Translations under genes and position numbers: made by a program
Notes under the pieces: model-generated
What the model was told of the DNA's origin: nothing
Seen by the model: the letters and a program-made list of their open reading frames with translations, nothing else
Database searches by the model: none
Shown: positions 26,409 through 54,034 of the stretch, in pieces
Layout of the letters: the number at the start of each line of letters is the position of its first letter
Numbering within the stretch: the first letter of the stretch is position 1
NCBI GenBank assembly: GCA_025782575.1
Contig: JALGYY010000035.1
Location: forward strand, 528,670-592,669
Origin: a bacterium
Lineage (GTDB): Bacteria > Orphanbacterota > Orphanbacteria > Orphanbacterales > Orphanbacteraceae
Reading direction: 5' to 3'
Length of the DNA: 64,000 bases

Positions 26409-26918
26409 TCACCCCCTCCACCTCGGCCGGTCGAGCGACCGGTACTGGATTGCCTCGGCGATATGATCGGCACTGACATGCTCGGCACCGGCCAGATCCG
26501 CGATCGTTCTGGCGACTCGTAGGATGCGGTCGTGTGCACGCGCCGAAAGCTCGAGCTTTTCCATGGCCATGCCGAGGAGTTGGCGACCTTCGGTGCCGGG
26601 CACGGCGAAGCGTTGCAGCAATCGCCGCTCCATCTCCGCGTTGGTCCGAGCAGGGCAACCCGATTCGGCCATTGCACCAGGCCCGTCGCCGAGTCGCTCT
26701 GCCTGCACCCCCCGCGCCTGTACCACCCTCTTCCGAATCACTGCGGAACGCTCGCCGCTCCCCTCCCCCTTCTTCGAAAGCTCCTCGAAGGTCACGCGGG
26801 GCATCTCGATATGAATGTCGATCCGGTCGAGAAGGGGACCGGAAAGTTTACCGGCGTAACGGGCGATCATGGACGGGTCACAGGAGCAGCGCGTTTCACC
26901 ATAGTACCCGCAGGGACA
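26409..26918 (-). pseudogene. comM: comM/yifB C-terminal fragment (Mg-chelatase-like AAA ATPase), truncated
   Basis: Reading on the minus strand the recognisable protein starts at CPCGYYGETRCSCDPSMI and continues as ARYAGKLSGPLLDRIDIHIE to the normal C-terminus (ADLAGAEHVSADHIAEAIQYR). ComM normally has about 500 residues; roughly the first two thirds, including Walker A and B, are missing. The match stops exactly before the invariant CPCG; the expected preceding Asn-Pro is replaced by unrelated sequence. The junction at 26918/26919 coincides with the change from core to accessory DNA. In Acinetobacter comM is a known island insertion site. Confidence 0.85.
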
Positions 26919-27010
26919 CCGTTGCGTTGCCTTTTGCCGGTCTTGCGTTGCGTTGCAAGAAACCGCCTCTTCTAGATTATCCCAAGAAAATCAACACTTT
27001 AGGAGATCAC

Positions 27011-27379
27011 TTGAAGCGTCGGAGACTTGATTCGGGACTCCGTCAGAAGGACGCGGCGAAGCAATTAGGTGTCCGAGTGGACACGTTTCGACTCTGGGAA
27101 GGCAACGCAACCCTTGCGTTGCCGCAACACTGGCCCGGTTTGATCAAGTTCCTAGGTGGCTACCCGTTTCGGATCGGCAGATCTTTCCCCGAGAAGTTCC
27201 ATGCAGCCCGCTTGATTCGGGGGCTTACGCATCGGGAGATAGCTGAAGTTTTTGGCGTGGATCCGAGTAACGTGTCGCGGTGGGAACGGGGTATCCAGAA
27301 ACCCGCTAACCGCATTGCCCGTCAAGTACGAGATTGGCTCCAAGATGTGCTTCAGAAGACCCCGCAAAACTCAGGATGA
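27011..27379 (+). CDS. Small helix-turn-helix (XRE-type) regulator
   Basis: A 122-residue DNA-binding protein with two HTH-like halves: HLKRRRLDSGLRQKDAAKQLGV at the N-terminus and ARLIRGLTHREIAEVFGVDPSNVSRWERG at the C-terminus. The frame is open far upstream, but a TTG at 27011 with AGGAG (27001-27005) 5 nt before it gives a normal N-terminus of this family, which often starts (M)G/KxHLRKRR. It is the first gene inside the accessory region next to the comM junction. Repeats of TTGCGTTGC flank and lie inside it and may be its binding sites (inference). Confidence 0.75.
   Translation: MKRRRLDSGLRQKDAAKQLGVRVDTFRLWEGNATLALPQHWPGLIKFLGGYPFRIGRSFPEKFHAARLIRGLTHREIAEVFGVDPSNVSRWERGIQKPANRIARQVRDWLQDVLQKTPQNSG
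27101..27123. repeat. Perfect inverted repeat inside the HTH gene
   Basis: GGCAACGCAA, 3-nt loop, TTGCGTTGCC. The same TTGCGTTGC word occurs twice upstream (26922-26930 and 26943-26951), directly at the comM junction. Could be an operator or an end-binding motif of the inserted element. Confidence 0.5.
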
Positions 27380-27538: not shown

Positions 27539-27577
27539 GGGTTATCCCCCGATTTCACGGACACATACGAAAAGCCG
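27539..27577 (+). repeat. 39-bp IS-end-like repeat, copy A
   Basis: Matches 34156-34194 over 39 nt with one mismatch (starts GGGTTATCCCCCG). Here it lies 23 nt upstream of a truncated transposase start, so it is the left terminal region of an IS3-type element whose rest has been lost. Confidence 0.65.
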
Positions 27578-33901: not shown

Positions 33902-34196
33902 AGCAGGAGAAGGGCAACCGGTCAGCGATCGACGTCTCTTCACTCGGCATCGGGGGTGGCACATCTTCAAATGCCCTGCGCAATAGATTGCGAAAGGAAC
34001 AGCATAAGTAGCGGTATTCTCGATTTCAAGCCCAACGGATACAAACACCTCATCGAGCTTTTCCCGTGACTCTTACGCTGATCCTTGCGCGGCGCTCCCT
34101 CTCGGGGAGGGGTGCCTCGCTCGGCTTCTTCAATCTCTGCAGCTAAGAACCGTTCGGGTTATCCCCCGATTTCACGGACACATACGATAAGCCGCA
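33902..34196. other. Mobile-element debris with 39-bp repeat copy B
   Basis: No gene is seen. Positions 34156-34194 repeat 27539-27577 with one mismatch and are cut directly by the left end of the IS starting at 34197, so this looks like an older IS end into which a second IS inserted. Confidence 0.5.
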
Positions 34197-34258: not shown

Positions 34259-34540
34259 ATGGGACAACGATATTCCCCGGAATTCAAGGATGAGGCTGTC
34301 CGGCAAGTACTCGACAGAGGCTATTCGGTGGCCGAGGTTGCAGGGCGGCTCGGCCTATCGGCGCACAGCCTCTACAAGTGGGTGAAGGCGGTAAAGCCTG
34401 ATAAGAACGAGAAGCAAGCTGACGAGCTTCTGGAGTCGAAGCGGGAGAATATGAGACTTCGTGCGGAACTCCGGCGGGTTCAGGAAGAGCGCGACATCCT
34501 AAGAAAAGCCGCCGCGTACTTTGCCAGAGAGCACGAGTGA
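34259..34540 (+). CDS. IS3-family transposase OrfA
   Basis: 93 residues: helix-turn-helix (FKDEAVRQVLDRGYSVAEVAGRLGLSAHSLYKWV) followed by a leucine-zipper-like coiled coil (ENMRLRAELRRVQEERDILRKAAAYF). GGAGGAGG lies just before the ATG. It overlaps OrfB by 4 nt; in IS3 elements a frameshift makes the OrfAB transposase. Intact, but its partner is broken. Confidence 0.9.
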   Translation: MGQRYSPEFKDEAVRQVLDRGYSVAEVAGRLGLSAHSLYKWVKAVKPDKNEKQADELLESKRENMRLRAELRRVQEERDILRKAAAYFAREHE

Positions 34541-35398
34541 AGTACGCGTTCATCGACGCGCATCGATTCGAACATTCGATTCAATTGATGTGCCGGGTTT
34601 TGCGCGTGGCACGAAGCGGTTTCTATGCCTGGCTCAGGAGGCCGATCTCAGATCGGGAACTCGCGAACAAGCATTTACTCGAACCGATTCGCCAATCGCA
34701 CGCGGCGAGTGGTGGCGTGTACGGAAGTCCGCGCGTTTACGCTGACCTTCGTGAGGCAGGTGAGACGTGCAGTAAGAATCGCGTGGCGCGCTTGATGCGT
34801 TTGCACAAGATCCGTGGGGTCCGTGGCTACAAGCGGCCGCGTTATACTAATGGCCGACCCACAGCAATCGCTCCGAATCGGCTCGGCCGCAAGTTCACGG
34901 TTGAAGCGCCGAATCAAGTGTGGGTGACCGATATCACGTACATCCGAACGTGGCAGGGCTGGCTGTATCTCGCAACGGTCATGGATCTTTTTTCGCGCAA
35001 GATCGTCGGATGGTCGATGAAGCCGACGCTCAAGCGTGCGTTCGCACTCGATGCAATTCTGATGGCCGTGTGGCGACGGAGACCGAAGACGCAGGTGCTC
35101 GTGCATTCGGACCAGGGATCGCAGTACGGCAGCGACGATTGGTTCCGGTTCTGTCGCGAGCACAACCAGAAGCCGAGCATGAGCCGTCGTGGCAATGCTG
35201 GGACAATGCACCGGCGGAGTCGTTCTTCAGTTCGCTCAAGAAGGAACGAATCCGAAAGAGATATATCGGACAAGAAACGAAGCGCGTGCCGATGTGTTCG
35301 ATTACATCGAGATGTTCTACAATAAAGTGCGGAGGCACAGCCATCTCGGAGACGTGAGTCCGGAGGCTTTCGAGCTCGCCTCACAAACGACCCGATGA
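34537..35398 (+). pseudogene. IS3-family transposase OrfB with two frameshifts
   Basis: Begins as a normal OrfB (HTH_21 part, then the rve DDE domain with WVTDITYI and HSDQGSQY). Near 35196 a base appears lost between GGCAAT and GCTGGGAC, shifting the conserved CWDNAPAESFF into another frame; near 35260 a second single-base loss shifts the tail YRTRNEARADVFDYIEMFYN into the third frame, which ends at 35398. The third catalytic residue (Glu of ESFF) is therefore out of frame and the copy is probably inactive, unless these are sequencing errors. Confidence 0.85.
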
Positions 35399-35517: not shown

Positions 35518-38500
35518 CTATGGCTCGATGTGCTTATAGACTGGCCCGTTGCTGCCAATAGACCGAAACTCGTAGAATCCCGCCCTGGGTTCCAAGGTGC
35601 CAAACTTTTGTCTCATAATACGGTAGAGCCGTTCATCGCATGTGGAGATGATGAACTGGCGGCGAACACTACTGTGGCTCATTAGCAGGCCACGGATAAG
35701 CTCAACAAATGCGTAAGCGTTCAGGTCGTCGAAGTGCGTGACCGGGTCATCGAGGAGGACAGGGGTGAAAGACGACCAGGTCTGAGTTGAGGCAATCGCC
35801 AGGAACAGGCTTAACATCAGTACCTGCTCCTGAGATTCGCTGAAATAGTTCGTTGGGAGGAATTCTTTCCCTCCCTTGGTAACCAGGGCACGAAGATTGC
35901 CCTCGGAAGACTGTATACGTACTTTACCAAAGCCGTAAACAGGACGAAGTCGCTGCTGCAATACCGATACCATCGGACCGAGATTTGTGGTGTACGCATC
36001 TACCGCATCGGAGCGCGTCTGATTCAGTGACGAACCGATCTCCCTGAAGTATTTACGCCACCGACGGCAATGGGAGAGCTTGTCATGGAAGTCTCGCAAC
36101 TCGTTGTCTCGCACTTGTTGCTCTTTCTCGAGGGACGACAACTCGGACAATTGTGCGGCTATCTTGAGCATCTGCTCTAGTGCGTTGAGTTCGCTTTCGA
36201 CCGACTCACAAACCTCAAGTCTCTTCATGGCGTCATCGCGAGAATCGCCAATCTGCTCCAGGGTCGGCTCTGCTGGTAGACTACATTTGACGATGATTGA
36301 ATTGTACCGTATCAGGTGTTCCTTTATCGCTGTTTCTTGCTGTTCCAGATCGGCTTGCTCAGACTGAGACCGCAGCAGAGACTCGCCTAGTTCGCCGCCC
36401 TTGCTACCTTGGTCCTTGAGTTTTGCTTGGATTTCCTTTGCTTGTTTCTCGACATGTGAGAGCGTCTCGTCCAATGCGGTGACTCTTGTTGCCACCTCCA
36501 TCGCGTCGGCCGGCAACAGGAGATCTTGTCTCTTGGCTTCATCCCTCAGGCTCTGGATTTCCTGCCGGGTCTGGGCGAGCTGCTCTTCTGTGCCTCCAAT
36601 TGAAGAAACCAATGTGGCCAAGGACAGCTCGGACGAGCTTAGTGTGTGTTGCATGGCATCAAGCTTGCGCTGTAAACCTGTGGCCTTCGCCTCAAGTAAC
36701 TGGATCTCCTGCTCTTCCTCGCGCATCCTTAGTTGCGCCGCATCGCCAAGTTGGCTGGGGTCGGTTGGGAGATTCAGCGCTCGTACCCGGCCCTCAAACT
36801 CAGCCAAAAGAGCTTGTAGTTTGTCTCTCTCTTCCCTCGCAGCCCGGCCTTCGAGTCCCAACTGCCTTGCCTCTTCGGCGAGGACATGCTCGCGCTCAGC
36901 CAGTGCCGCGATTTCCTGCTTGATGCGTTCTTCCCTCTCCGCGGCCGCCTTTTGTTCCACAGGCACTGCTGCGCTTCGCGCTGTGATTGCGTCAAGTAAT
37001 CTATCCCGCGTGCCCAGATCCGACCCGCAGGTGGGACACGTAGCGTCACTGATAAACTCAGTTAGTTGACCAAGGAGAGCCGCCAGTTTTGCGTGGGAGG
37101 ATGAAATCTCCCGCGACTTCTTCTCGGCCTCCTTGGCAACCAAGTGAGTGGCGTTAAGCTGATCCGATAAAGACCGATGTTGGTTAGCATTTTCTTCGAT
37201 GCGGCGCTCCAACTCACGAAGCATGGTCTCGCTCCTAGCCAGCTCTATTCGCCACCGCATCCACCCAGTCATCATCTCGACCACATCACGAATCGTGGCC
37301 CAGCGGGTCCGAGCTTGGCTCAGAAATTCGGCATTCGTTCCGAGTCCTTCTTGGATCTCGAGGCGGGCACGGGTGGTTTCGGACAAAGACTTGCGGGTAT
37401 CATCCAGCCGGGCTCTTTCAGCCTGGAGAGCCGATGTCAGCTGAATCGCACTCGTTTCCATCGCTGTTACCCGTCCAGTGACGTTCGCTAGCCAAACCAA
37501 CCCTTCCCGCTCCTTTCGGGACCGCTCGATTCTAGCCAGTATTTCGTCGTATCGTTGACGCAGTTCGGCCTCGCCCTTTGTTAGGTCTTTCCGGTCTCGG
37601 CTGAGAGTCGAAATCTGAGCACGAACGGCCGCCACATGCTCTTGTATCCCCGGCAGCGTCGACTTCATGACAAGGGCGCCAGGAAGTTCGGATTCGAGTT
37701 GATTGAGTTCGCCAACCAGTGCCCGCAAGCGCGTATCCGCACCCGCTGCTTCCGTTCGCCATTCGCGAATATGCTCATCGGACACCGTATCTGGTATTCG
37801 AATCTTCACGCCTGCGGCTGTTCTGACTTTTTGCACGATCGTCTGGACAGTTTTCTGTATCGCTTCTGGCGCTTCTGCACCATTCAGACTTGCGCGAATT
37901 ATCTCTCGCCTCTTCCTCAGCAGATCGGCATCCTCGTTAAACTGTCTACGCTTCCCGGACAGTTCTTCCTCGCGCATCTGGATGACCCTGGCAACTTGGC
38001 CAGCCTTGCGGCTTCCGCGTACGTAGTCCTCAAGCGCCAACATTCTAGCCACGATGTCCGGCTCAAGTTGCGAGGTATTCCGGAACTTGGTTAGAAGCGC
38101 CTGGTAGTCTTGGCCAAAAAGGTGGCACGAGCGGAATAGACGTTCAAGGTTCTCCACACGCTCGGTTGCCTCTGAGTCCTGACCACAACCAAGCCATTTT
38201 AGGAGTCTCTTCCGATCAAAGCGTGCGCCGTCAACGTCTGCCTTGTCCCATCTTTCCGTGGTCCGCGTCACCGTGGTGTGTTTGTCGGTACTATCAGAGA
38301 CGGTCATGCGGACTTCTGCTTCCGCTGTCGCATCTAGGTGCTGGATAAGGTCCACCGGGCTCGGACCTGGGCCAAACTGCGCAGTGAACCGCCCCAGCCT
38401 GCCCGTGCAGACGAAGTCGATAGCATCGAACAATGACGTCTTCCCAAGACCGTTCGGGCCATATAAGACCGTCACGTCCGCACTCAGGTCGAACTGGTGG

Positions 38501-39186
38501 TGCCCCCTATAGGCACGGAATTCGCTGACATCCAACGAATCGATTCGTTTACCGGCAACCGGGATGGTAATTTCCTCGGGCTGCGCCCGTTCGCGCGTCT
38601 TGGTGGACTCCAGCGTAATTGGATCCTTACTGAGACAAGAGCTAGCAATGCCCTGATCAGAGGACCTTATCGACACCAGCTTGTCGGCCAGATCTGGCTC
38701 TACACCAGAAGCACGTAGCAGGTCTTGCGCGGCCCGAGGTCTCCCTAAGCTGACGGTACCTTGCCTATCAAGCGGGATGAACGGCAAGCGAAGAAGCCGT
38801 TGTTGCAGGCGATCAGGATCGTTGTCGGCTTCAATGACGAACTTCCGGCAAAAGTAAGTGTTGACCTCGACTGAGTTCCAGAACGCCATGTCCTCGTCTC
38901 TCATCGCAACCGGACAACAAACGAAAGACAGCGTACGCGATTCCCACTCATCGACGTGAATACGGTACAAATCCTTGAATGTCCCGTAGAGCTGTTCGTA
39001 TGTCGCCCTCGGCTCTTTCTGCCCGGCCACAACGAACCCAGCCACGTCCAACTCGCCAGTCACAAGTAGCAGCCCCGGGTCTGGTTCCGCAAGGCGATTC
39101 ATGTGCCACCCAATGCTAATAAGACTGCCGCCGAGGCACGCTTCTAGAGTCTTGTAGTAAGTTGCGAGTCCCTCAGAGGAGTTCAT
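35518..39186 (-). CDS. Rad50/SMC-like ATPase of a two-gene defence-like operon
   Basis: 1,222 residues from the ATG at 39186, which overlaps the nitrilase-fold gene by 14 nt; the open frame upstream of it is only shadow. Residues 1-225 form an extra N-terminal domain. Walker A is LYGPNGLGKTSL near residue 245; long coiled coils surround a zinc hook CPTC near 717; the signature LSLFLAIAS and Walker B VLLDDPVTHFDD (near 1145) close the ATPase. SMC-like ATPases with an enzyme encoded upstream are typical of Lamassu and ABC-three-component defence systems; the coupling here suggests DNA sensing with an enzymatic effector (inference). Confidence 0.88.
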   Translation of the reverse strand: MNSSEGLATYYKTLEACLGGSLISIGWHMNRLAEPDPGLLLVTGELDVAGFVVAGQKEPRATYEQLYGTFKDLYRIHVDEWESRTLSFVCCPVAMRDEDMAFWNSVEVNTYFCRKFVIEADNDPDRLQQRLLRLPFIPLDRQGTVSLGRPRAAQDLLRASGVEPDLADKLVSIRSSDQGIASSCLSKDPITLESTKTRERAQPEEITIPVAGKRIDSLDVSEFRAYRGHHQFDLSADVTVLYGPNGLGKTSLFDAIDFVCTGRLGRFTAQFGPGPSPVDLIQHLDATAEAEVRMTVSDSTDKHTTVTRTTERWDKADVDGARFDRKRLLKWLGCGQDSEATERVENLERLFRSCHLFGQDYQALLTKFRNTSQLEPDIVARMLALEDYVRGSRKAGQVARVIQMREEELSGKRRQFNEDADLLRKRREIIRASLNGAEAPEAIQKTVQTIVQKVRTAAGVKIRIPDTVSDEHIREWRTEAAGADTRLRALVGELNQLESELPGALVMKSTLPGIQEHVAAVRAQISTLSRDRKDLTKGEAELRQRYDEILARIERSRKEREGLVWLANVTGRVTAMETSAIQLTSALQAERARLDDTRKSLSETTRARLEIQEGLGTNAEFLSQARTRWATIRDVVEMMTGWMRWRIELARSETMLRELERRIEENANQHRSLSDQLNATHLVAKEAEKKSREISSSHAKLAALLGQLTEFISDATCPTCGSDLGTRDRLLDAITARSAAVPVEQKAAAEREERIKQEIAALAEREHVLAEEARQLGLEGRAAREERDKLQALLAEFEGRVRALNLPTDPSQLGDAAQLRMREEEQEIQLLEAKATGLQRKLDAMQHTLSSSELSLATLVSSIGGTEEQLAQTRQEIQSLRDEAKRQDLLLPADAMEVATRVTALDETLSHVEKQAKEIQAKLKDQGSKGGELGESLLRSQSEQADLEQQETAIKEHLIRYNSIIVKCSLPAEPTLEQIGDSRDDAMKRLEVCESVESELNALEQMLKIAAQLSELSSLEKEQQVRDNELRDFHDKLSHCRRWRKYFREIGSSLNQTRSDAVDAYTTNLGPMVSVLQQRLRPVYGFGKVRIQSSEGNLRALVTKGGKEFLPTNYFSESQEQVLMLSLFLAIASTQTWSSFTPVLLDDPVTHFDDLNAYAFVELIRGLLMSHSSVRRQFIISTCDERLYRIMRQKFGTLEPRAGFYEFRSIGSNGPVYKHIEP

Positions 39187-40972
39187 ATAGCCTCTTCTCA
39201 ATATCGGATTCGATATCCCCGTTGATGAACCAGTCGAGAACCTGCTGATAGCCCACATGCTTGATGTGGGTTTCGGGATCGGTGAATGTGATACCCTCAC
39301 TTCGCACGCTGGAGCCAGGGACGTCCGTGATTTTGCTCACTGTGCGCTCGCAGACCGGGGTATTGTCCTTGTCGCGAGTGACCAGGAACACGGGGTGATT
39401 CGGAATTGGCTCACGATTTAACCTAAAATGCTCTTTGCAGTCGATGTGCGAATGACCGCAAATCACTACTATGTCAAATGGCTTGCCGAGCACCTCTCCA
39501 CGCCCATGATTGCTGCCTTCAGATGCTGACAAAGTGCCGCCAACTGCAACTATCGTGCTTGCGTGGACGACACACGTTAGCGCATTTTCTTCCTGCATCG
39601 CCCAATCATCGGGAACGATGTTCCTGTGGTGATCTTCCTCCTTCATCAGCACGCAAGTAGCCATCAGCACGCGCTTCTCAACGCTTCCACATTCAATATC
39701 GCACCAACTCAACATGACTTCTCGTTGTTTTACCTCTGCTGTGGACTTTAGTGGCGCCTCCGGATACTGCTCGGCGAGAGAGCCTGTTACGTCAAGACAA
39801 TCATGGAGCCACTTGACACCTGCCGGCACTGGTTGACCAGGTGTTCTCGCATCGCTATCAGATCCCAGGGGGTGGACGGCAGGATTGTCCACAGGTGGCT
39901 TTCTGCCGGCTGCATCATGGCGAGCGAATTTGGGGACCCTGACCTGCATGGAGTGGATACAGGGTCCCATCTCACGAAAGACCGCATCCTGGCATCGCTT
40001 AAGAATGTCGGACTGGCGCAAATGCTCTGCCCTGTAACACACTGTCGCTGGTCTGTCGCTATCACAGTCGAATGTGTTCGGGTGGAAGACGAGGGCCGAG
40101 AAACCAAAGCTATCTCGGTGCGCCCGTCGGAATTCACTGGCGCTATTTGAGTGAACAACCACTGCGTCACGGCGTTCCACGAATGAGTACTTCCCAGAGT
40201 GGAAGAATTCGCTCGTCGCATTGAGAAATAGAGGGTTGCAGGGTTTCTTGTTGAACTGTGGCACGAAGACCCAATGAATGGGTCTCGGATCTGGTTTCCA
40301 GATTTCATCGATTCGCTCCAGAACACCGTCCAGTGCAGAGACTCCCCCATCCACTCCGATCCAGTCAAAACAGATGAGACAAAGAAACCGGCATGGATAG
40401 CCGTCCAATCCGTATTCTGCGCGGAAGATATATACACCCTGACCGGTCCGCATGCACAGACATCGGACTTGTTGCTCCTGCCGTGCCCGCGTGAGCTTGG
40501 GTTGGACGAACACCCGGACGTGGCCCGAGGCTTCTTTCACCCAAACGACGCAGCAATTCACCCACTCGGCGGCCGATAGGTCTTTTGGTTCGCTGCCTGG
40601 GAGGGGGTCCTCCGGCCTTAGCCGCTCCCAGACTGAGCTATATTGTTCGCAGTCCAAGCCGTCAACGCCCGCGATCACAATGCTGTTCGTTTGCCATAAA
40701 TCCTGGCGGATAGCAGCATCTACGATTTCCAAGCCACTCAAGCCGGGAAGCGAGTACTCAGGGAAGATCGTAAATTGTGCCTGTCTATCTAAGGCAACCT
40801 CAAGAGTCTGTCGCACAGCATCGCGTTGGATTCCCACACTCTCGGCCGGCCAGCAGTAAGGCTCCAGGTTGTCAAAACCCTTGATCAGCGGTTGCATGAG
40901 CACAATCGGGATGGAAGCCTGGGGGAAGGTCACCCCCAACGATACTTCCTTCACATCAATTCCATTGTTCAT
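39173..40972 (-). CDS. Nitrilase-fold (carbon-nitrogen hydrolase) protein, putative effector paired with the SMC ATPase
   Basis: About 599 residues. The N-terminal 300 residues show the nitrilase triad in order: Glu in FTIFPEYSLPG, Lys in FVQPKLTR, Cys in CLICFDW (near 72, 159 and 201). The C-terminal half is unrecognised, with VICGHSHIDCKEHF near its end. Nitrilases cleave amides or nitriles; an amidase-type effector with an SMC ATPase recalls the amidase subtype described for Lamassu-like systems. GTG at 40996 is an alternative start. No third small gene is present; that role may be taken by the ATPase's N-terminal domain (inference). Confidence 0.8.
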   Translation of the reverse strand: MNNGIDVKEVSLGVTFPQASIPIVLMQPLIKGFDNLEPYCWPAESVGIQRDAVRQTLEVALDRQAQFTIFPEYSLPGLSGLEIVDAAIRQDLWQTNSIVIAGVDGLDCEQYSSVWERLRPEDPLPGSEPKDLSAAEWVNCCVVWVKEASGHVRVFVQPKLTRARQEQQVRCLCMRTGQGVYIFRAEYGLDGYPCRFLCLICFDWIGVDGGVSALDGVLERIDEIWKPDPRPIHWVFVPQFNKKPCNPLFLNATSEFFHSGKYSFVERRDAVVVHSNSASEFRRAHRDSFGFSALVFHPNTFDCDSDRPATVCYRAEHLRQSDILKRCQDAVFREMGPCIHSMQVRVPKFARHDAAGRKPPVDNPAVHPLGSDSDARTPGQPVPAGVKWLHDCLDVTGSLAEQYPEAPLKSTAEVKQREVMLSWCDIECGSVEKRVLMATCVLMKEEDHHRNIVPDDWAMQEENALTCVVHASTIVAVGGTLSASEGSNHGRGEVLGKPFDIVVICGHSHIDCKEHFRLNREPIPNHPVFLVTRDKDNTPVCERTVSKITDVPGSSVRSEGITFTDPETHIKHVGYQQVLDWFINGDIESDIEKRLYELL

Positions 40973-41402
40973 AGTGCTAATCTCAGCTAGTGACACCGTA
41001 CATGGCCCATTTGCCCAAGTGTTTATAGGTCATTCGAATGGTATGCCGGCAGCGAACGATAACAATATAATCTCGCTTCATGGCTCCATATCGCCGTTCT
41101 ATTTCCTTTTTCACGGAACAAGCGAACTATCAAATAGATTTCGCCTTCCACCCTGTATAGATTGTACCGTATTGGGACGAGTATTTCAGGTGGGATCTCT
41201 AGATTCCAGAGTTATATATCTACAAACGCCGGTTCCCGATACCTTAGCCATTTCCCCGAGGCTATACTAACCACTCAGGCTGGGATTTCTCGCTCTCCCC
41301 GCGGATAATCTCGTCACTGTTGGCTTTTATGGTCGGTCACTACTGATACCCCTATCGCTAAACCGAAACGGTATCACCGACGACCATGATAAGTCCCTCT
41401 CC
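40973..41402. other. Intergenic region upstream of the nitrilase/SMC operon
   Basis: About 430 bases with lower GC than the surroundings, no convincing gene on either strand. It should hold the promoter of the nitrilase/SMC operon (minus strand). Confidence 0.4.
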
Positions 41403-41654: not shown

Positions 41655-41733
41655 TGACCTGACCCCCTGAAACCGGTCCGGATCGTAAGTTAGGATTTTG
41701 ATACGATCGGGCCAAATGAAAAGGGGTGTTAAT

Positions 41734-42012
41734 ATGCCTAGAAAGCGATATTCGGCTGAGCAGATCATCGGAAAGCTGCGGGAATCCGAAATCATGCAGA
41801 CGAAGGGGCTGACGATCTCGGACATCTGTCGGGAGCTTGGTGTGAGCGAGCAGACCTATTATCGGTGGCGACGTGAGTTCGGGGGCCTCGGAGTTGACCA
41901 GGCCAAGCGCCTGAAACAACTGGAGGGAGAGAACAAGCAACTGCGCAAGCTGGTTGCCGACCAAGCGCTCGACATGGCGATCCTGAAAGAGGCCGCCTCG
42001 GGAAACTTTTAG
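41734..42012 (+). CDS. IS3-family transposase OrfA
   Basis: 92 residues with HTH (YSAEQIIGKLRESE...LTISDICRELGVSEQTYYRWRREFGG) and a C-terminal leucine zipper. The stop at 42010 follows an AAACTTTTAG run; a -1 slip there reads LLGPTRRRQVVDHVRREL and joins OrfB, the programmed frameshift typical of the family. Confidence 0.92.
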   Translation: MPRKRYSAEQIIGKLRESEIMQTKGLTISDICRELGVSEQTYYRWRREFGGLGVDQAKRLKQLEGENKQLRKLVADQALDMAILKEAASGNF

Positions 42013-42032: not shown

Positions 42033-42902
42033 GTGGTGGATCATGTCCGCCGGGAGCTGGCAGTGACGGAACGTCGGGCTTGTCGGGTGCTTGGGCAGGC
42101 TCGGTCAACCCAACGCCGCCGACCAAAAATCGCGGCCGACGAGGAGCGGCTGACGGAGTCGATCGTTGGTCTCGCGCGCGAGTACGGGCGGTATGGGTAT
42201 CGCCGAGTTACCGCGCTGCTCCGGCATGCCGGCTGGCGAGTGAACCACAAGCGAGTGGAGCGGATCTGGCGGCAGGAGGGTCTTCGGGTGCCGAAAAAAC
42301 AACCGAAGCGCGGGAGGCTCTGGCTGAATGACGGATCATGCGTCCGGAAAAGAGCGGAGCATGCGAATCACGTGTGGTCCTACGACTTCGTGATGGATCG
42401 TACCCGTGACGGCCGCGCGATCCGCATGCTGACGATCGTGGACGAGTATACGCGTGAGTGTCTGGCCATCGACGTAGGACGGAGGTTGAATTCGGAGAAT
42501 GTGCTTGCTCGGCTTGCGGATCTCTTTGTGCACCGGGGAACACCGCGATACATCCGGTCAGACAACGGACCGGAGTTCACGGCAAAGCGGGTGCGAGAAT
42601 GGCTCTCACGGGTGCAGGTGAACACGCTGTTTATTGAACCGGGAAGCCCTTGGGAGAACGGTTATGTGGAGTCGTTCAACGGAAAGCTCCGAGACGAGCT
42701 CTTGAACCGGGAGATCTTCTACACGCTGATCGAGGCCCAGGTGTTAATCGGAAGATGGAGAAGATTATACAATCACTTCCGGCCGCACAGTGCCCTGGGG
42801 TACAGACCGCCGGCACCGGAAGCGATCGATCCAGCTGTCAGGAAGATCACTTCCAGCGAAGTGGGAGAATGGAAGAAACTAACACAGGAAGTGGTACAGT
42901 AA
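42033..42902 (+). CDS. IS3-family transposase OrfB (DDE integrase domain), complete
   Basis: 289 residues; HTH_21 region (GRYGYRRVTALLRHAGW) and rve core with all three catalytic residues: Asp in WSYDFVMD, Asp in RSDNGPEF and Glu in VESFNGKLRDE. Coding actually begins around 42003 through the -1 frameshift from OrfA. No frame breaks, so this copy could be active. Confidence 0.92.
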   Translation: MVDHVRRELAVTERRACRVLGQARSTQRRRPKIAADEERLTESIVGLAREYGRYGYRRVTALLRHAGWRVNHKRVERIWRQEGLRVPKKQPKRGRLWLNDGSCVRKRAEHANHVWSYDFVMDRTRDGRAIRMLTIVDEYTRECLAIDVGRRLNSENVLARLADLFVHRGTPRYIRSDNGPEFTAKRVREWLSRVQVNTLFIEPGSPWENGYVESFNGKLRDELLNREIFYTLIEAQVLIGRWRRLYNHFRPHSALGYRPPAPEAIDPAVRKITSSEVGEWKKLTQEVVQ

Positions 42903-45178: not shown

Positions 45179-45499
45179 ATGCTTAAGAAACCCGAATCAG
45201 TCCAGGATGATGCCAAGGAGCAACTTCGTGCGCCTACGCTTCTGTCTCAAGAGGACGTCGACGAATTCAAACGCATCATGAAAAAGGAGTGTGGAGAAGA
45301 ACTCTCAAACTCAGAAGCTTGGATCCGAGGAACAGAGTTAGTAAATATGTTTCGGATGCTTGCAGGTCCGATTCCTGAAGATCCGGAACGCAATTCTGTG
45401 CCGAAGTCGAAGGAGGTCACGGAAGCGAAACCTCAGCCCAGCCCAAAGTCATCCAATCCGACCAAGGGGAAACGGCGCCAACTATCTCTTGATCTCTAA
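45179..45499 (+). CDS. Small recombinase-associated protein (paralogue of the 54.1-kb gene)
   Basis: 106 residues. The core (LSQEDVDEFKRIMKKECGEE, SNSEAWIRGTELV, FRMLAGPIPEDPERN) aligns almost residue for residue with the 88-residue protein at 54074-54340, which sits directly upstream of the second serine recombinase. Such proteins are seen next to large serine recombinases in many uncultured bacteria; a role as directionality factor or regulator is a guess. Its last codons run into the left 180-bp repeat, and it is divergent from LexA-like repressor 1. Confidence 0.7.
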   Translation: MLKKPESVQDDAKEQLRAPTLLSQEDVDEFKRIMKKECGEELSNSEAWIRGTELVNMFRMLAGPIPEDPERNSVPKSKEVTEAKPQPSPKSSNPTKGKRRQLSLDL

Positions 45500-45670
45500 G
45501 CCTTCCCCCTCTTCCCCGATGTCCGGGATTCTGGTACTCTACCCAGGTCGTCGTCGACTTTGCTCGATGGTACGCTTGTATCGACAGTTAGCTCATCCAA
45601 GTCTGGTATCACGAAATATTCGCTAGTATTCGCGATCCAAGTTCGAACGTCGTCTACTGTGGTGTACCAG
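45491..45670. repeat. 180-bp direct repeat, left copy
   Basis: Matches 52383-52562. On the minus strand it encodes WYTTVDDVRTWIANTSEY... to SRTSGKRGKA, identical in reading frame to the C-terminus of recombinase 2 but preceded here by unrelated sequence, so it is a detached gene end. Confidence 0.9.
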
Positions 45671-45875: not shown

Positions 45876-47336
45876 CTAGGATTCACGAGGCAACATTTCT
45901 TCCTGAAACGAGAAAGGACGGTGGAGGTCGCAGAAGAGGCGCTTCCCCCCGAGCGAAAACGTCCCAATAGTGGACAACACCATGCGGGTTTTCGTGTGGT
46001 CCTCATGTTGTAAGACCCGATGAATCCTCTCTGCGAGGGAGTCCGCGCTATCCACAGAGGGATGGTCGTTTTCCTCCTTCGGCGGAGCGCTCTCGGCCTG
46101 CCCGCTGAGTCGCCCGATGTCCTCCTGTAGAGTGGCTCTACGTTTTTCGTGTTCTCGAGCGTCGATCAGACCACGAACGCTGAGATCCGCTAATCGACGA
46201 AGCTGCATAATACTCTCCTCGAGAGCTTTCCTCGCAGACGCCCGGGCCACCTCATCGATGCTCCGATCCTCCCTCCTCTTTCGGACCTGCTGCTGAGCCC
46301 ATTTCTCGAGTTTTGGTGGTACTGTAACCCGATTCACGTACTCATGAATCTGTCGTTCAATTTCCGCGGCCGGCACGTACTTGCCCGGGCATCGAGTCGC
46401 GCCTTTCTTTGTGCAGTGATAGTAGACATAGCTCCGGCCGCTCGGTTTCACTATTTCGCTGGCCGTAACCGAGCAACCACATTCTCGGCAGGTCATGAGT
46501 TGCGTATAGGGAAACGAATGCTTTTTTGAAACTCGACGTCGCTTTCCGCCAAGTACTTCCTGCACTCGCTCGTACTGGCCCCGGGAGATCATTGGGGTGT
46601 GAGCACCGGCGTAGAGTTGTCCCGAGAACTCAATGACACCGTAGTAGAAGCGGGACTTCAGAATCCGGTAGAGACCGGATCGGGAAAGAGGGGAATTTCC
46701 CATGCGAGGAGTTTGTGGGGTTCGGAAGCCCCACTGCTCATTTACCACTCGGAGAAGTTTTGGTATTGGTGTCCCGGAAGCAGCAAGCTCCCAGATCTTT
46801 CGGACGAGGAGAAACCGCTCCGGATCGGGAGTGATCCGTTTGAGCGCCCGATCGTTCAGGTACCCGAGTGGCGCCTTTCTCGGTAACCACCCCCGTTCGA
46901 CTTTGGCCCTTAGACCCCTCTTCACGTCCTCGGCGAGGTCGTCGACGTACTTCTTCGCCATACCAAACTCGAGCTGCATCCAGAACTTGTCGTTCCCCGA
47001 GTTTTCGTATGTCCGCTGGGGTGTGACTATTCTTTGAAGCCTCCTCTCTTCCAAGGACCAGATCACAGCCCCGCCGTCTACGGGGTTGCGGGCTAGGCGG
47101 TCGAGTTTCCAGCAGAGGATCCCGTCTGCCTTGCCAGCGGAGATCTCCTTCAGCATAGCTTGGAAGACTTCTCTTCCGGGAGCTCGGGCAGATTCTGATT
47201 CGGAGAGAATCCTGGAGACCGTGAAACCGCGATCTTGGGCAAGACTGAGTAATTCTTTGATTTGAGAAGCGATAGAGAGGATCTGATGATCATCGCTCTC
47301 CGTAGATCTCCGGGCGTAGAGAATGTAGTCGGTCAT
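45876..47336 (-). CDS. Large serine recombinase 1
   Basis: 486 residues: resolvase domain with the catalytic Ser in YARRSTES (Ser11) and the Arg-rich pocket (CWKLDRLARNPVDGG), recombinase domain (APLGYLNDRAL...), zinc ribbon (CREC...CTKKGATRC) and a C-terminal coiled coil. Large serine recombinases integrate and excise elements between attP and attB without a host factor. Its start overlaps the small upstream gene by 4 nt. It diverges from the LexA-like repressor 2/CBASS operon and sits inside the repeat-bounded unit, so it is the likely mover of that unit. Confidence 0.93.
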   Translation of the reverse strand: MTDYILYARRSTESDDHQILSIASQIKELLSLAQDRGFTVSRILSESESARAPGREVFQAMLKEISAGKADGILCWKLDRLARNPVDGGAVIWSLEERRLQRIVTPQRTYENSGNDKFWMQLEFGMAKKYVDDLAEDVKRGLRAKVERGWLPRKAPLGYLNDRALKRITPDPERFLLVRKIWELAASGTPIPKLLRVVNEQWGFRTPQTPRMGNSPLSRSGLYRILKSRFYYGVIEFSGQLYAGAHTPMISRGQYERVQEVLGGKRRRVSKKHSFPYTQLMTCRECGCSVTASEIVKPSGRSYVYYHCTKKGATRCPGKYVPAAEIERQIHEYVNRVTVPPKLEKWAQQQVRKRREDRSIDEVARASARKALEESIMQLRRLADLSVRGLIDAREHEKRRATLQEDIGRLSGQAESAPPKEENDHPSVDSADSLAERIHRVLQHEDHTKTRMVLSTIGTFSLGGKRLFCDLHRPFSFQEEMLPRES

Positions 47337-48273: not shown

Positions 48274-49245
48274 ATGCCCAATCCAATCATTACACATACT
48301 GATATCGCGGAATTCTCTGAGTCTCACGTCAACCTCCCGTCGGACCTAGCGACGCTATATCGAGAGCAGGTAAATAGGCTACGAAAGCGACTAGAAAAGC
48401 ATATCGCAGAGAACCCCGGATTCGCCGTTGTAAAGATGTTGCATGCGGGAAGCGTTGCCAAGGGTACCGCACTGCGCTCGATCAACGACCTCGACGTAGC
48501 CATCTATGTCTCGAAGGAGGCGACTCCAACACGAGAGGAGGATCTCGTTCCATGGATTGGACAGCGTCTTCGTGAGGCGTATTCAAAATTGAGTCCTGAT
48601 CAAATCGACGACACACAGCCCCACTGTGTAACAATTCACTTTGAGAAACCGGACCTCGATATCGATGTAGTGCCCGTACTCTATGAAGGAGAGGCAAACG
48701 ATATTGGCTACCTTGTGAGCCGACATACTGGAGAACGTATTCTTACAAGCATCCCGCTACACTTGGACTTCATCCGGAAACGAAAAGGGGTCTGTCCTGT
48801 TGACTATGCTCAAATCGTTCGACTTCTAAAGTGGTGGGCTGTCCAACAGAAGGAGCTTGACCCTGAATTCAAATGCAAATCGTTTCTTCTTGAGCTCATC
48901 ACTGCCCATTTGCTGGACGGGGGTGAGGAGTTATCGGACTACCCGGGAGCGCTTGATCATGTCTTCACCTATATGGTCCGATCTGGCCTTGAAGAGCGTA
49001 TAGCCTTCACTGACTATTATCCAAAGAGCAAGCTCCCGGGGCCGACGGGGAATGCAATAGAGATCTTTGATCCTGTAAACCCCGAAAATAACATTACGGA
49101 CAAATACGAGACCGAGGATCGGGAGCGCCTTGTTTTTGCGGCCGAAAAGGCCGCCGATGCCATCTCGGAAGCAAGGTACTCCACCACAAAGTCACGGGCC
49201 GTCGAACGTTGGCAAGAAGTGCTTGGCCCAAGCTTCAGAGGATAA
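48274..49245 (+). CDS. cdn: CD-NTase (CBASS cyclic oligonucleotide synthase)
   Basis: 323 residues of the OAS-like nucleotidyltransferase superfamily: GS motif (Gly59-Ser60, AGSVAKGTAL), DxD metal site Asp72/Asp74 (INDLDVAIYV) and a third acidic residue near Asp131 (DIDVVPVL), then the helical OAS1-type C-terminal domain (DYAQIVRLLKWWAVQQ). On sensing phage it makes a cyclic di- or trinucleotide that activates Cap4. GAGGA lies 6 nt before the ATG. Next to HORMA and TRIP13 genes, so its activation depends on a HORMA-peptide complex. The product nucleotide cannot be read from sequence. Confidence 0.92.
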   Translation: MPNPIITHTDIAEFSESHVNLPSDLATLYREQVNRLRKRLEKHIAENPGFAVVKMLHAGSVAKGTALRSINDLDVAIYVSKEATPTREEDLVPWIGQRLREAYSKLSPDQIDDTQPHCVTIHFEKPDLDIDVVPVLYEGEANDIGYLVSRHTGERILTSIPLHLDFIRKRKGVCPVDYAQIVRLLKWWAVQQKELDPEFKCKSFLLELITAHLLDGGEELSDYPGALDHVFTYMVRSGLEERIAFTDYYPKSKLPGPTGNAIEIFDPVNPENNITDKYETEDRERLVFAAEKAADAISEARYSTTKSRAVERWQEVLGPSFRG

Positions 49246-49251
49246 CATCTC

Positions 49252-49758
49252 ATGACGTATACATTCACACAAACCAGCACCTTCACTCGTACCAGCGCCC
49301 GTTACCTTGCTTCGAAGGTGGCAACTGACCTCTACCGGCTCAATCGACTGTACGGAAGGCCGTCCGAGCCTCACATTGATAACTATAATGATGAGCTTGT
49401 TGAACTCTTGCTTGGAAACTATGTTCAATCGGTTGAGTATGGATTCAAGCGCCAAGAATATAGAATTCTGACCCTTTCCTACGAGGTTCAGACTGACGGG
49501 TCGCTGTCCGATAGCGATGCTGGAGGCATATATGCTCGCGCCTCGGACGTCCGGAGTGCTTCGTGGTTTTCCTATATGACGTATAGCGCAGCATGGTATC
49601 TTCTTTCGCACTACCAGCGTGCGTCAATTCAAGAACAGCTTCCTTTTCAACGCTCTGACTCTTTGGCGCCTCGAGATGGCAACGGATATTGGACTGCTGA
49701 CCGCGGATACTCGACGGACGGAACCATTCTGTCGCGACAGACTTTTAGACCATACTAA
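49252..49758 (+). CDS. cap7: Bacterial HORMA-domain protein (Cap7)
   Basis: 168 residues matching the bacterial HORMA family 1 pattern: start TFTQTSTFTRTSARYLASKVATDLYRLNRLYG, then LVELLLGNYVQSVEYGF, ASWFSYMTYSAAWYLLS, LPFQR and a C-terminal safety-belt tail (YSTDGTILSRQTFR). In type III CBASS, HORMA binds a closure peptide, associates with the CD-NTase and switches it on. It sits 6 nt after the CD-NTase and 2 nt before the TRIP13 gene. Confidence 0.9.
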   Translation: MTYTFTQTSTFTRTSARYLASKVATDLYRLNRLYGRPSEPHIDNYNDELVELLLGNYVQSVEYGFKRQEYRILTLSYEVQTDGSLSDSDAGGIYARASDVRSASWFSYMTYSAAWYLLSHYQRASIQEQLPFQRSDSLAPRDGNGYWTADRGYSTDGTILSRQTFRPY

Positions 49759-49760
49759 TT

Positions 49761-50702
49761 ATGAACTCTATTAACCCACAACTATTTGATGCCGTGCTCG
49801 AACTTCCAGATCCTACCCGCCAGCAACAATTTGACAGCCTTGTTGGCCTCGAATCCATCAAAGAAACCCTCGTCAAGGAGGGGACGGTTCTTCTAAACCC
49901 CACCCTCTTAGCTGACTGGAGCAATAAGTATCACAAGCAGGAACTTCCCTGCGTTCGTACCTTCAGGGAGCGCCCACCGCTAATCTTGTTCTCCGGAGAT
50001 GTCGGCACAGGCAAAACCAGTCTCGCCGAGAGCTTTGGAGATGCTATTGCGCGCCGGGAGAAAATCAAGATACGCGTGCTTCGCATGAGCCTCTTTACGA
50101 GGGGTCGCGGCGCGGTCGGAGAGATGACTCGGTTGATTTCTCAAGCATTCTCCGAGGTCGAGCAGATTGCTTCTCGAGGCATTCGCAAAGGTCTGAAGCC
50201 TGCCTCTGGTGTCATCCTCATCATTGATGAAGCCGACGCACTAGCACAATCCAGATCAGAGGAGCAAATGCATCATGAAGACCGCGCCGGCGTAAATGCC
50301 CTAATCCGTGGTATTGATATGCTGACCTCGGTCGATCTGCCCGTCATGGTCGTCATGTGCACCAATCGCGATAACGCAATGGATCCAGCCATCCTTCGCC
50401 GAGTTGCAACGCACCATGTTTTTAATCGACCAACCGCCGAGCAAAGAGTCGCCGTTTTCAAAGGCGCGTTTGGGAAAGTGCTTTCTGGTGACGAACTTGC
50501 TCGCATCGGAAAGCTCACTGGTCGATCCAATGGCCGAGAATACGGATTTACTTACTCAGATCTTCTTCAGCGACTCGTGCCAGCAGTTGTCATGAGCGCA
50601 TTCCCCGACCAGGCGATAACGCTGCCACTTGTTGAATCGGTGATTGAAAGGGAAGTCCCCACAGCCCCGTTTGACTCTTCCGGCAATCACAATGAGAAAT
50701 AG
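49761..50702 (+). CDS. cap6: TRIP13/Pch2-like AAA+ ATPase (Cap6)
   Basis: 313 residues: Walker A GDVGTGKTS (residues 79-87), Walker B LIIDEADAL near 155, sensor-1 VVMCTNRDNAMDPAILRR and a small helical C-terminal domain. In type III CBASS this remodeller opens HORMA and disassembles the HORMA/CD-NTase complex, keeping the system off in uninfected cells. Its stop overlaps the Cap4 start by 11 nt. Confidence 0.92.
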   Translation: MNSINPQLFDAVLELPDPTRQQQFDSLVGLESIKETLVKEGTVLLNPTLLADWSNKYHKQELPCVRTFRERPPLILFSGDVGTGKTSLAESFGDAIARREKIKIRVLRMSLFTRGRGAVGEMTRLISQAFSEVEQIASRGIRKGLKPASGVILIIDEADALAQSRSEEQMHHEDRAGVNALIRGIDMLTSVDLPVMVVMCTNRDNAMDPAILRRVATHHVFNRPTAEQRVAVFKGAFGKVLSGDELARIGKLTGRSNGREYGFTYSDLLQRLVPAVVMSAFPDQAITLPLVESVIEREVPTAPFDSSGNHNEK

Positions 50703-52137
50703 AGCCCTGAGCGCTAGGGGGGCCAGTATTCGCGGTGATGACTATCAACATCTCTGGGGATGGATAAAGGCGCTAAAGGTCCTTACTCCAGGATCAATTG
50801 TTACTGAGATTGGTATCGAGGATCCGAGAGCTAACGGCGCAGATGATGTCACCGTATACTACGCTGACGGTCGGAATGAACTCTATCAATGCAAATCAGC
50901 CGTAGACGGCCGAAAGATGTTTAATGTCGATTGGTTGATTGAGGATGATGTCCTTCTTCGCCTATTTGATGTATGGAAAAAACATTCTGACAACCTGGAT
51001 GGCCTCCAAATCGAACTTGTCACGAACAGACTTCCAGACACCAATGATCCTTTCTGTGACCTTCTCGACGGAAGAAGTCGAAAAGTTACCAACCTGCTCC
51101 ATACTGACGGCCCTCGTTCTCGAATAGGGAAAGTCAGGAAGCGGCTAACAGACGGTCTTCGCACAACCGATGCCGAACTTCGTGCCTTTCTTTCCCATGT
51201 TAGTTTTCGCATAGCCCTCTCCTTCGAGGATCTTGCTGAACGAGCGAGAGAGGAAATGGGGTATCGGGGGTTGCGTTCAGATCGCACCGACCTGGACCAG
51301 GGAATCGAACTAATCCGGAAATGGGTCACTTCCGGTAAACGCAACCTTTCGGCCCAAGAGGTTAGAGATGAGATTGGTACTCTTCAGCTGGAGCGAGAAG
51401 CCCCGTATACAACTCTTCTCATACAGGCACTTGATCGAGAACTCGCCCCTGGGGATGCCGACATTGTTTTTGATTGGGTAGATCTTTTCATCGGAGATGA
51501 CCCGCGATCTCGTCGTTTGCTCCATGACAATAGTGACTGGAACTCTAGAATCCGCCCCGAAATTAAGAAGGCTGCAGATGTACTGAATCGCGAGTCTCAC
51601 AGACGAGTTATTGTACGTGGATCCGCGCGTCTGCCACTATGGTTTACGGTTGGTGTGGAGTTCTCGCGAACTGCGGGATTCGATATTGCCTCAATGCAAG
51701 GTGGGCAAATCTGGGGATCCACTGGTGGCGAAATCAACCAGATGCGCCTAAGTACTCATCACGAACAGCTTCGAGATGGGAATAGCATCGCGATCGGGCT
51801 ATCGGTATCGACCGATCTCTCGGCTGATGTGCGCGAATATGTTGAGAATCACCTTCATGAAGTGGGTAGCGTATTCTTCCTTTCCCCAGAGAGGGGTCCA
51901 AGCAATGCCGCCATTCCTGATCCTAAAGCTGCTCGTGATCTGGCGTTCTCCGTTAGAGATCTCGTGCGAACGATAACACGGGAGAAGAAACCGCATACTT
52001 TGCACCTCTTCATAGCTACACCCCGAGGTTTCTCCCTTCTCCTTGGGCATCTGTGGGATCGAATGCCACACACTCAACTGTACGAGGATCTTGGCTCTCC
52101 TGGTGGTTATGCGCCTTCTTTTTCGATTTCCAACTAA
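50692..52137 (+). CDS. cap4: Cap4: nuclease-SAVED effector of CBASS
   Basis: The ATG at 50692 overlaps the end of the TRIP13-like gene and starts RNRALSARGASIRGDDYQHLWGW; codons before it are shadow. N-terminal about 150 residues are a PD-(D/E)xK-type DNA endonuclease with ADDVTVYY (Asp51/52) and ELYQCKSA (Gln66-x-Lys68). The C-terminal 200 residues (RVIVRGSARLPLWFTVGVEF ... HTLHLFIATPRGFSLLLGHLWDRM) are a SAVED ligand-binding domain. Binding of the cyclic oligonucleotide multimerises Cap4 and triggers double-stranded DNA cleavage, killing the infected cell. Last gene of the operon; a weak 6-bp hairpin (52145-52166) follows. Confidence 0.9.
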   Translation: MRNRALSARGASIRGDDYQHLWGWIKALKVLTPGSIVTEIGIEDPRANGADDVTVYYADGRNELYQCKSAVDGRKMFNVDWLIEDDVLLRLFDVWKKHSDNLDGLQIELVTNRLPDTNDPFCDLLDGRSRKVTNLLHTDGPRSRIGKVRKRLTDGLRTTDAELRAFLSHVSFRIALSFEDLAERAREEMGYRGLRSDRTDLDQGIELIRKWVTSGKRNLSAQEVRDEIGTLQLEREAPYTTLLIQALDRELAPGDADIVFDWVDLFIGDDPRSRRLLHDNSDWNSRIRPEIKKAADVLNRESHRRVIVRGSARLPLWFTVGVEFSRTAGFDIASMQGGQIWGSTGGEINQMRLSTHHEQLRDGNSIAIGLSVSTDLSADVREYVENHLHEVGSVFFLSPERGPSNAAIPDPKAARDLAFSVRDLVRTITREKKPHTLHLFIATPRGFSLLLGHLWDRMPHTQLYEDLGSPGGYAPSFSISN

Positions 52138-52382
52138 AGCAGGGGCCGATTCACGCAAAGATCGGCTTGTCCGATAAGCTTCCTTCTGGTTTTCACAGGA
52201 GGTCCTGTTTACCGAACTTCCGCCCCCCTCCTTTTCGCTTTTTCTTCTTGATAGGCTTTCTACATGATTTACTCTGGAGGGAATTAGATGCTTCACTGTA
52301 GAAGCATAGCCGTTGGATAGCGTCGAAATGTTCCTGGAAAGAGGTACGAATACCATCCACGGTAATCGACCAACTGTCCCTC

Positions 52383-52562
52383 GATCTTTAAGCCTTCCCC
52401 CTCTTCCCCGATGTCCGGGATTCTGGTACTCTACCCAGGTCGTCGTCGATTGTATTCGACGGTACACTTGTATCGACAGTTAGCTCATCCAAATCTGGTA
52501 TCACGAAATATTCGCTAGTATTGGCGATCCAAGTTCGAACGTCGTCTACTGTGGTGTACCAG
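52383..52562. repeat. 180-bp direct repeat, right copy
   Basis: Forms the 3' end of recombinase 2 and continues 5 nt past its stop. See the left copy at 45491-45670. The 245 bases between Cap4 and this repeat hold no gene that I can see. Confidence 0.9.
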
Positions 52563-54034
52563 TTGAAACTCGCGGCTGATTCCGCTACGAACGAGAACGG
52601 TTTCGCCAATGAAAACCGGACTTTTCGTCCCCTCAAGGTGTAGTTCAAACCTACTGTGTCGAGAATTTTTCGCTTCTGAACTTTTGTCCCCGCTGCGAAA
52701 ACTCGACCCGCCCTAACCGCAAACTCAATCGTCTTTTTCGTGAGCGCGTCGACTTCCTCCGAGCTCCTCGGACCGGCACCGATCTTCTCCTCCATTGCGC
52801 GACGACGGTCTTCCAGCGCTCGTTTCCTGCCGATGTAGACGTCGTCATCAACGAGTTCGCGAAGTCGCAGGGAAAGGAGGTTATCCACCTCCTGGTTTAC
52901 CTTCTCCAGAGATCTTTGCATTGACTGACGGACTTCTTCCCGTCTCGCCTTTTCGCGAGTCGATTCCTTTTCTAGCTGGCGCTTGATCCAATCATAGACT
53001 TTCTCTGGGATTCCAATTCGGGAGAGTTCCCCTTGCATCTGCCTCTCCAGATCGGGCCCAGAAATCGCCGGTTCCCGGCAAACGACATTTGCCTTTTGTC
53101 TCGAACACCGGTAGTAAACATATTTCAACCCGCTCGGCTTCGTATGTACTTCAGCGGTTATCGAGCCCCCGCAGAGTCCACACACGATGAGACCCGTGAA
53201 GGGGAAGCTGTGCTTCTTCGGTCGTGGGCGTCCTGGGCGCCCAAGAATATCCTGAACACGGTCAAATTCCTCCCGGGTAACCATCGGCGGATGCAAACCG
53301 GAAAATGTTTCTCCGGACCGGAGCTGTATGACTCCCATGTAGAAAGGGTTGGCGAACATACGGTATATCATTGACCGAGAGAGAGCTTTCCCTCCTTGGC
53401 GCTTGGACTTCCGAGTACGAAAACCCCATTCCTCATCGGCGATCTGCAGGATCTCCTTCGGCCTCATGGTGCCGGAGAGAAGAAGCTCCCACATCCGCCG
53501 AACATGGTCAAAGCGGTCAGGGTCCTTCTCGATGGTCTTCTCTAAGCGATTGTTGAGATACCCAAGGGGAGCAACTCCACTGAGCCAACCCTGCTTGAGT
53601 TTCGCGCGGATCCCCCTCCGAACGTTCTGCCGGAGGTCGTCGATAAACTTTGTCGCGATCCCGAGTTCAAAGTTCCCCATGAAACGGTCGTTTCCATCTC
53701 GGGTGTAGGTCCGGTCGCTTGTAACGATTTCATCCAACTTACCATCGGCCAGAGCTTGGAGGATGGATCCAGTATCCATATGGTTTCTGGAAAGGCGATC
53801 CATTTTCCAACAGAAGACGCCGCGAATCTCGCCCTTTTTGATGCGTCGCATGAGCTGGTCGAAGACTGGTCGGCCGGGGGCCTTGGCCGATTTCGCTTCC
53901 GAGAGAACCTCCGCAATGCGAATTCCTCTCCTCTCGGCAATACTTCGGAGTTCGTCGATTTGGGAATCGACCGAGAGTATCTGTCGGTCTTCCGATTCAG
54001 TGGATTTTCTGGCGTAGATGATGTGTGAAGGCAT
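52388..54034 (-). CDS. Large serine recombinase 2
   Basis: 548 residues: catalytic Ser11 in YARKSTESE, FCWKMDRLSRNHMDTG, recombinase domain (GVAPLGYLNNRLE...), zinc ribbon (CGLCGG ... CSRQKANVVC) and C-terminal coiled coil; about 40% identical by eye to recombinase 1. The last 58 residues are encoded by the right 180-bp repeat. Upstream by 39 nt on the same strand is the 88-residue associated protein. It probably mobilised the older element carrying the 54-59 kb module and perhaps the LexA-1 operon (inference). Confidence 0.93.
   Translation of the reverse strand: MPSHIIYARKSTESEDRQILSVDSQIDELRSIAERRGIRIAEVLSEAKSAKAPGRPVFDQLMRRIKKGEIRGVFCWKMDRLSRNHMDTGSILQALADGKLDEIVTSDRTYTRDGNDRFMGNFELGIATKFIDDLRQNVRRGIRAKLKQGWLSGVAPLGYLNNRLEKTIEKDPDRFDHVRRMWELLLSGTMRPKEILQIADEEWGFRTRKSKRQGGKALSRSMIYRMFANPFYMGVIQLRSGETFSGLHPPMVTREEFDRVQDILGRPGRPRPKKHSFPFTGLIVCGLCGGSITAEVHTKPSGLKYVYYRCSRQKANVVCREPAISGPDLERQMQGELSRIGIPEKVYDWIKRQLEKESTREKARREEVRQSMQRSLEKVNQEVDNLLSLRLRELVDDDVYIGRKRALEDRRRAMEEKIGAGPRSSEEVDALTKKTIEFAVRAGRVFAAGTKVQKRKILDTVGLNYTLRGRKVRFSLAKPFSFVAESAASFNWYTTVDDVRTWIANTSEYFVIPDLDELTVDTSVPSNTIDDDLGRVPESRTSGKRGKA

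Follow-up and report, generated by a model that had tools for sequence, protein, structure and literature searches.

An integrative element in comM whose large serine recombinase gene is probably split by its own insertion

The interrupted comM gene

The window analysed here is a 64,000-nucleotide stretch (G000:C13:528670-592669) of a 4.88 Mb genome assembled in 49 contigs. The C-terminal third of comM lies in it on the minus strand at 26409..26918, running from the CPCG of the NPCPCG motif to the stop codon, and its translation reads CPCGYYGETRCSCDPS...RPRWRG*. A profile search places this fragment at TIGR00368 positions 344-499, and Pfam finds PF13335 (Mg_chelatase_C, E=1.8e-31) and the end of PF01078 in it, which bears out an initial annotation of this DNA that had comM intact from CPCG to the C-terminus and ending abruptly at 26918. 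The N-terminal part (TIGR00368 3-348), which was to be sought beyond the window, is not absent from the genome and lies on a separate contig at G000:C46:19840-20874; since the missing part is present there, comM has been cut and not degraded. The window thus holds one edge of the island, as had been supposed, and the far edge was located on C46, where the comM N-terminus and the second attachment site lie. Upstream of the C46 comM is a gene that resembles, as judged by eye, the one preceding comM in G002, a relative in the same family, and C46 therefore carries the native comM copy. Uninterrupted comM genes had been expected in relatives and exist in G002, G004 and G006, all of the same family, and the empty site in G002 reads ATGAATCCCTGTCCCTGC, which is the sequence expected without an insertion.

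Read along the comM strand, the N-terminal side finishes with AATCCC-TG-TTTGGACGTTGCC... and the C-terminal side opens with ...CAACGG-TG-TCCCTGCGGG. The sequence common to the two junctions is TG(T) and nothing longer, matching what is expected of a serine integrase; no target duplication beyond TG(T) was found at the two comM junctions, and the short duplications anticipated at both island ends accordingly failed to appear. The crossover core is assigned to 26917..26918 (CA on the plus strand, TG on the comM strand), these being the only bases common to both junctions here and in G003, which belongs to another genus of the same family. The two core bases TG belong to the codon for the first Cys of NPCPCG, and the joined target encodes N-P-C-P-C-G in frame, as in G002. 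The alternative cores AC and GG, tried by hand, were rejected as they leave comM out of frame, whereas TG restores NPCPCG and suits G003 too. An apparent split of comM in G001 consists of two overlapping contig ends (L045/L046) and is not counted as an insertion.

Island content and repeats

The initial annotation described an accessory region to the right of 26918, and IS3-type transposases, serine recombinases, Lamassu and CBASS are indeed present there. The island side amounts to 19.8 kb on C46 and 44.0 kb on C13, making the island at least 63.8 kb long; no direct overlap was found between the C13 and C46 ends, and further contigs may lie between the two parts. Cargo in the window includes IS3-type transposases on the plus strand at 34537..35325 (PF00665, PF13276) and 42033..42902 (PF00665, PF13683, PF13276), and the Lamassu genes lmuB (35518-39300, PADLOC PDLC03861, 1134 bits) and lmuA (39173-40996, PADLOC PDLC03850, 649 bits), both on the minus strand. 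A type III CBASS follows on the plus strand at 48274..52137, with cyclase, HORMA, TRIP13 and SAVED-PDDEXK effector genes recognised by Pfam and PADLOC. Two further large serine recombinases are encoded on the minus strand, at 45876..47336 and 52388..54034 (each with PF00239, PF13408 and PF07508), the former of a family different from that of the island integrase described below. LexA-like regulators and AbiTii make up other cargo.

Several repeats accompany these genes. The CBASS module is flanked by a 193-bp direct repeat (45478-45670 and 52370-52562, 93.8% identical). The two further serine recombinase genes, which share a strand, adjoin this repeat, and two LexA-like genes are close by; CBASS may form a nested cassette of its own. 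A 153-bp repeat (91.5%) occurs at 41655-41806 of the window and at L009:7302-7454 and is common to both island halves. Close to the island's left end, two copies of a 39-bp direct repeat (97%) are seen at 27539-27577 and 34156-34194, the second preceding the first IS3-type transposase.

The C46 part encodes a TrwB/TraG/HerA-like ATPase of about 1030 residues (L009:9706-12810). Relatives of this ATPase lie within 10 kb of the large serine recombinase (LSR) introduced below in 37 of 81 loci, some of them beside intact fused genes, and judged from this gene neighbourhood a transmissible element is therefore plausible. Relaxase or mating genes were not seen in the recovered, incomplete island, nor were phage structural genes in Pfam scans of it.

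The integrase at the far boundary and its spread

At the comM-N boundary on C46 lies the gene of an LSR (L009:18354-19868), with PF00239 (Resolvase) and PF07508 (Recombinase) above the Pfam cut-off and the PF13408 zinc ribbon just below it. The Ser of the catalytic region is invariant in 40 aligned LSR proteins, and the structure model of the L065 protein, taken up below, contains coiled-coil-like helices, as in large serine recombinases. The stop codon of the gene is situated about nine codons inside comM. Lying between comM-N and the island, the protein is 55-77% identical to LSRs that adjoin comM elsewhere; in G003 an LSR 77% identical stands at comM-N and a helix-turn-helix (HTH) protein, 49% identical to the one described below, at comM-C.

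A survey using one genome per species (84,980 species) returned 80 LSR loci, to which viral contigs added one more, giving 81. The comM N-terminal part adjoins the LSR, in antisense orientation, in 57 of these, with comM cut at nearly the same codon, near TIGR00368 position 350. The 57 loci fall in 18 named phyla, one of them archaeal and represented by a metagenome bin that may be contaminated. The sole viral-contig locus itself adjoins comM. Close relatives of the LSR were not found in phages and plasmids, where identity is at most 35% over short stretches, and the phage LSRs among the matches listed are at most 31% identical to it. The proposal that comM is an insertion hotspot is upheld by these repeated insertions in relatives and in many other phyla; that comM is a serine-integrase hotspot is already published, and the mechanism is not AbaR-like.

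An attachment site inside the integrase gene

What begins at the comM break in the window, where the initial annotation had pointed to TTGCGTTGC words, is the arm of an element attachment site (attP). The right arm, CCGTTGCGTTGCCTTTTGCCGG, occupies 26919..26940 and makes up an inverted repeat together with the C46 end. When the two element ends are joined, this inverted repeat is centred on the core and pairs 15 of 25 positions (17 in G003), and in both genomes no dyad elsewhere in the joined gene is better. The same joining yields one open frame of 649 residues (647 in G003) comprising the LSR and two HTH domains, with T-V-A-L-P-F conserved immediately past the core in both. The tail of this frame is encoded in the window on the plus strand at 26918..27379 and consists of a linker and two XRE-type HTH domains (HTH_31/HTH_3), homologues of which lie beside comM-C. 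The circular element is a reconstruction, contigs C13 and C46 not being physically joined.

Whether the common frame is incidental can be judged across the family. No stop codon occurs in the LSR frame over the final 90 nt before the core in any of the 54 loci with a recognisable core, and over the same stretch the other two frames have stops in 37 and 49 loci. Homologues of the HTH protein were sought in 45 of the LSR-locus genomes and lie beside comM-C in most of the genomes with matches. The reading phase is the same at both element ends in 22 of the 23 genomes in which both ends can be read, and each of the 22 matched pairs yields a fused frame that extends 94-233 residues past the core; the lone mismatch, L163 (G060), has an HTH gene that does not adjoin comM. 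The matched pairs form two phase classes (17 and 5), and the phase switches about five times on the LSR tree, L074 and L110, for example, being nested in clades of the opposite phase and changed at both ends. Such joint switching would not be produced by coincidence or by a common ancestry of spacing. Substitutions at the three codon positions (0.29/0.24/0.48 in the attP arm, 0.51/0.48/0.69 in the following linker) are highest at the third, a pattern that fits translation across the core. Several copies of the HTH tail follow one another within a single genome in G042 (G042:C1:71728-79286 and G042:C53) and in G055 (G055:C31:4747-14167), in the latter near comM-C, which suggests repeated insertions at one site.

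Intact LSR-HTH genes are also met in nature. In L064, L065, L104 and L106 the LSR and HTH parts form a single open frame in which the strongest dyad falls where the core is expected, and L082 is an open fusion too, although its dyad at the core is weaker and not the best in the ORF. The fusions are mixed among integrated LSRs in the tree (L104 with L099, L082 with L115, L065 with L080 and L081, L064 with L067), and comM is uncut in the four Patescibacteria that have fused genes (L065, L082, L104, L106). The patescibacterial L104, on a 329-kb contig, is close kin to the integrated copy L099 from another phylum. An open LSR-HTH frame in L204 (G079) has an unconfirmed attP and is kept apart from the confirmed fusions. 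In a structure model of the L065 protein the LSR extends to about residue 480, residues 482-527 are disordered and include the core at about residue 502, and beyond them come two helical domains, so that on this model integration is predicted to take off a tethered module and leave an ordinary LSR.

Proposed mechanism and its alternatives

We propose that an integrative element of at least about 64 kb entered comM by site-specific recombination, in which the LSR would have recombined attB, at the conserved NPC|PCG codons in comM, with the attP of the circular element by exchange at a TG core. The attP would lie within the integrase gene of the element itself, where the disordered linker between the LSR and the two HTH domains is encoded, and integration would therefore split comM and the integrase gene together. 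The HTH tail would thereby be moved to the far end of the element (26918-27379 in the window), and the integrated form would have an LSR of ordinary length that ends about nine codons inside comM, and an HTH tail that lacks a conserved start of translation. Both genes would be made whole again by excision. The tail would be made from the free circle only, as part of the integrase, and be lost on integration, forming a switch that reports the integration state; in the circular form it probably regulates the expression or the use of the integrase.

The anatomy of this proposal, that is the sites, the split, the in-frame fusion, its recurrence across phyla and the natural intact fusions, appears very nearly certain as far as comparison of genomes can carry it. 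The assignment of the tail as an integration-state switch is less certain than the anatomy and is put forward tentatively, being rather more doubtful than not when taken by itself. The reading as a whole, LSR insertion with a self-splitting integrase gene and the tail as a state switch, is considered likely. Counting against it, the two island parts are on separate contigs, some fused genes are on large contigs (L104, 329 kb), and the fusions of L093 and L174 are frame-broken just past the core and have been left out of the count of intact fusions.

The same anatomy could serve a different end if the tail governs the direction of recombination, as an attached directionality factor or its opposite, and not expression. 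Excision by serine integrases requires a partner protein, which lends this idea some appeal, and loss of the tail at integration would alter the enzyme exactly when its direction should change. However, an integrase with a directionality factor attached to it in the circle would tend towards excision at the very stage at which it has to integrate; XRE-type HTH domains, moreover, are usually DNA-binding regulators, and a role in direction seems unlikely though worth keeping in mind.

Less probable still, and by a clear step, is that the LSR gene simply extends into attP with its 3' end and the HTH protein comes from an independent gene that has a start of its own, the common frame being incidental. 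On the HTH side a TTG codon is often present 10 nt past the core and might provide that start; it is frequent because it is inside the attP arm. In 3 of 22 cases the integrated HTH side has a start codon preceded by a plausible ribosome-binding site, which is inconsistent for a dedicated start; the natural open fusions, the phase changes made at both ends together and the coding-like substitution in the linker ahead of any good start also argue against a separate gene. Separate production of the HTH protein after integration is nevertheless possible under the self-splitting model preferred here.

An AbaR-like transposon of the Tn7 family is scarcely credible as the island, for although the target is the same and comM of Acinetobacter is interrupted by islands that carry defence genes (PMC11472951), a serine recombinase stands at the boundary, only TG(T) is common to the junctions and no Tn7-type (tni-type) transposition gene is found among the scanned island ORFs. 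Misassembly or a binning chimera, which 49 contigs and comM halves on different contigs might bring to mind, can hardly be entertained, as the breaks are internal to both contigs and yield a precise attB and an attP with a dyad, and G003 and dozens of further genomes, isolates among them, are broken at the same codon.

Comparison with known systems

Mg-chelatase/comM genes are established targets of serine integrases, and Durrant et al. 2022 reported that 12.4% of predicted site-specific integrases target this family (PMC10083194). Those LSRs share the enzyme class and the comM target with the present one, and the main text of that study makes no mention of an HTH tail, an attP in the integrase gene or integrase splitting. 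The initial annotation likened the island to AbaR, and the likeness holds for comM as the target gene and fails for the agent, here a large serine recombinase that acts site-specifically at a 2-bp core. AbaR/Tn7-like islands in Acinetobacter comM are large and can carry CBASS-type and other defence systems (PMC11472951), but AbaR is a Tn7-like transposon and the present island a serine-integrase element.

The suicidal integrases of the SSV1 type also have attP in the integrase gene, which is split by integration and would be restored by excision (PMC8371274). They are of the tyrosine type, were called exclusively archaeal in that 2021 review and have their catalytic protein broken, whereas the integrases here are of the serine type, mostly bacterial and retain a whole catalytic part. 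Mycobacteriophage BPs has its attP inside the repressor gene and an integration-dependent immunity (PMC4557955), and there too an attP in a coding gene allows integration to trim a C-terminus and alter the state of the protein; BPs trims its repressor and the island its integrase. The phage WO sr1 prophages of Wolbachia have an LSR, a Mg-chelatase gene target and HTH_XRE genes at the opposite prophage end, the latter described as separate regulators (PMC9203015); no integrase fusion is reported for them, and they possess phage structural genes, of which the recovered part of the island showed none. A self-splitting serine integrase was not found in the literature, which was covered mostly without subscription papers and preprints, and the novelty is provisional.

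Implications

It seems somewhat more probable than the contrary that mostly bacterial self-splitting serine integrases exist at comM in at least 18 named phyla, passing from an LSR-HTH protein to a bare LSR on integration and so having a built-in sensor of state. They would be a serine-type counterpart, with many bacterial members, to the self-disrupting integrases that the 2021 review confined to archaea (PMC8371274). The proposal accounts for HTH genes beside broken comM copies and identifies one vehicle carrying Lamassu and CBASS into comM. Some carriers are cultured isolates, among them the Sphingobium, Phenylobacterium and Brevundimonas strains of L107, L121 and L138, and the proposal can therefore be tested at the bench. 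It offers a simple route by which an integration reaction may alter its own enzyme, of relevance to the keeping of the integrated state, and if true, recombination rewrites the very enzyme that carries it out and would give the element a built-in sensor of its own state.
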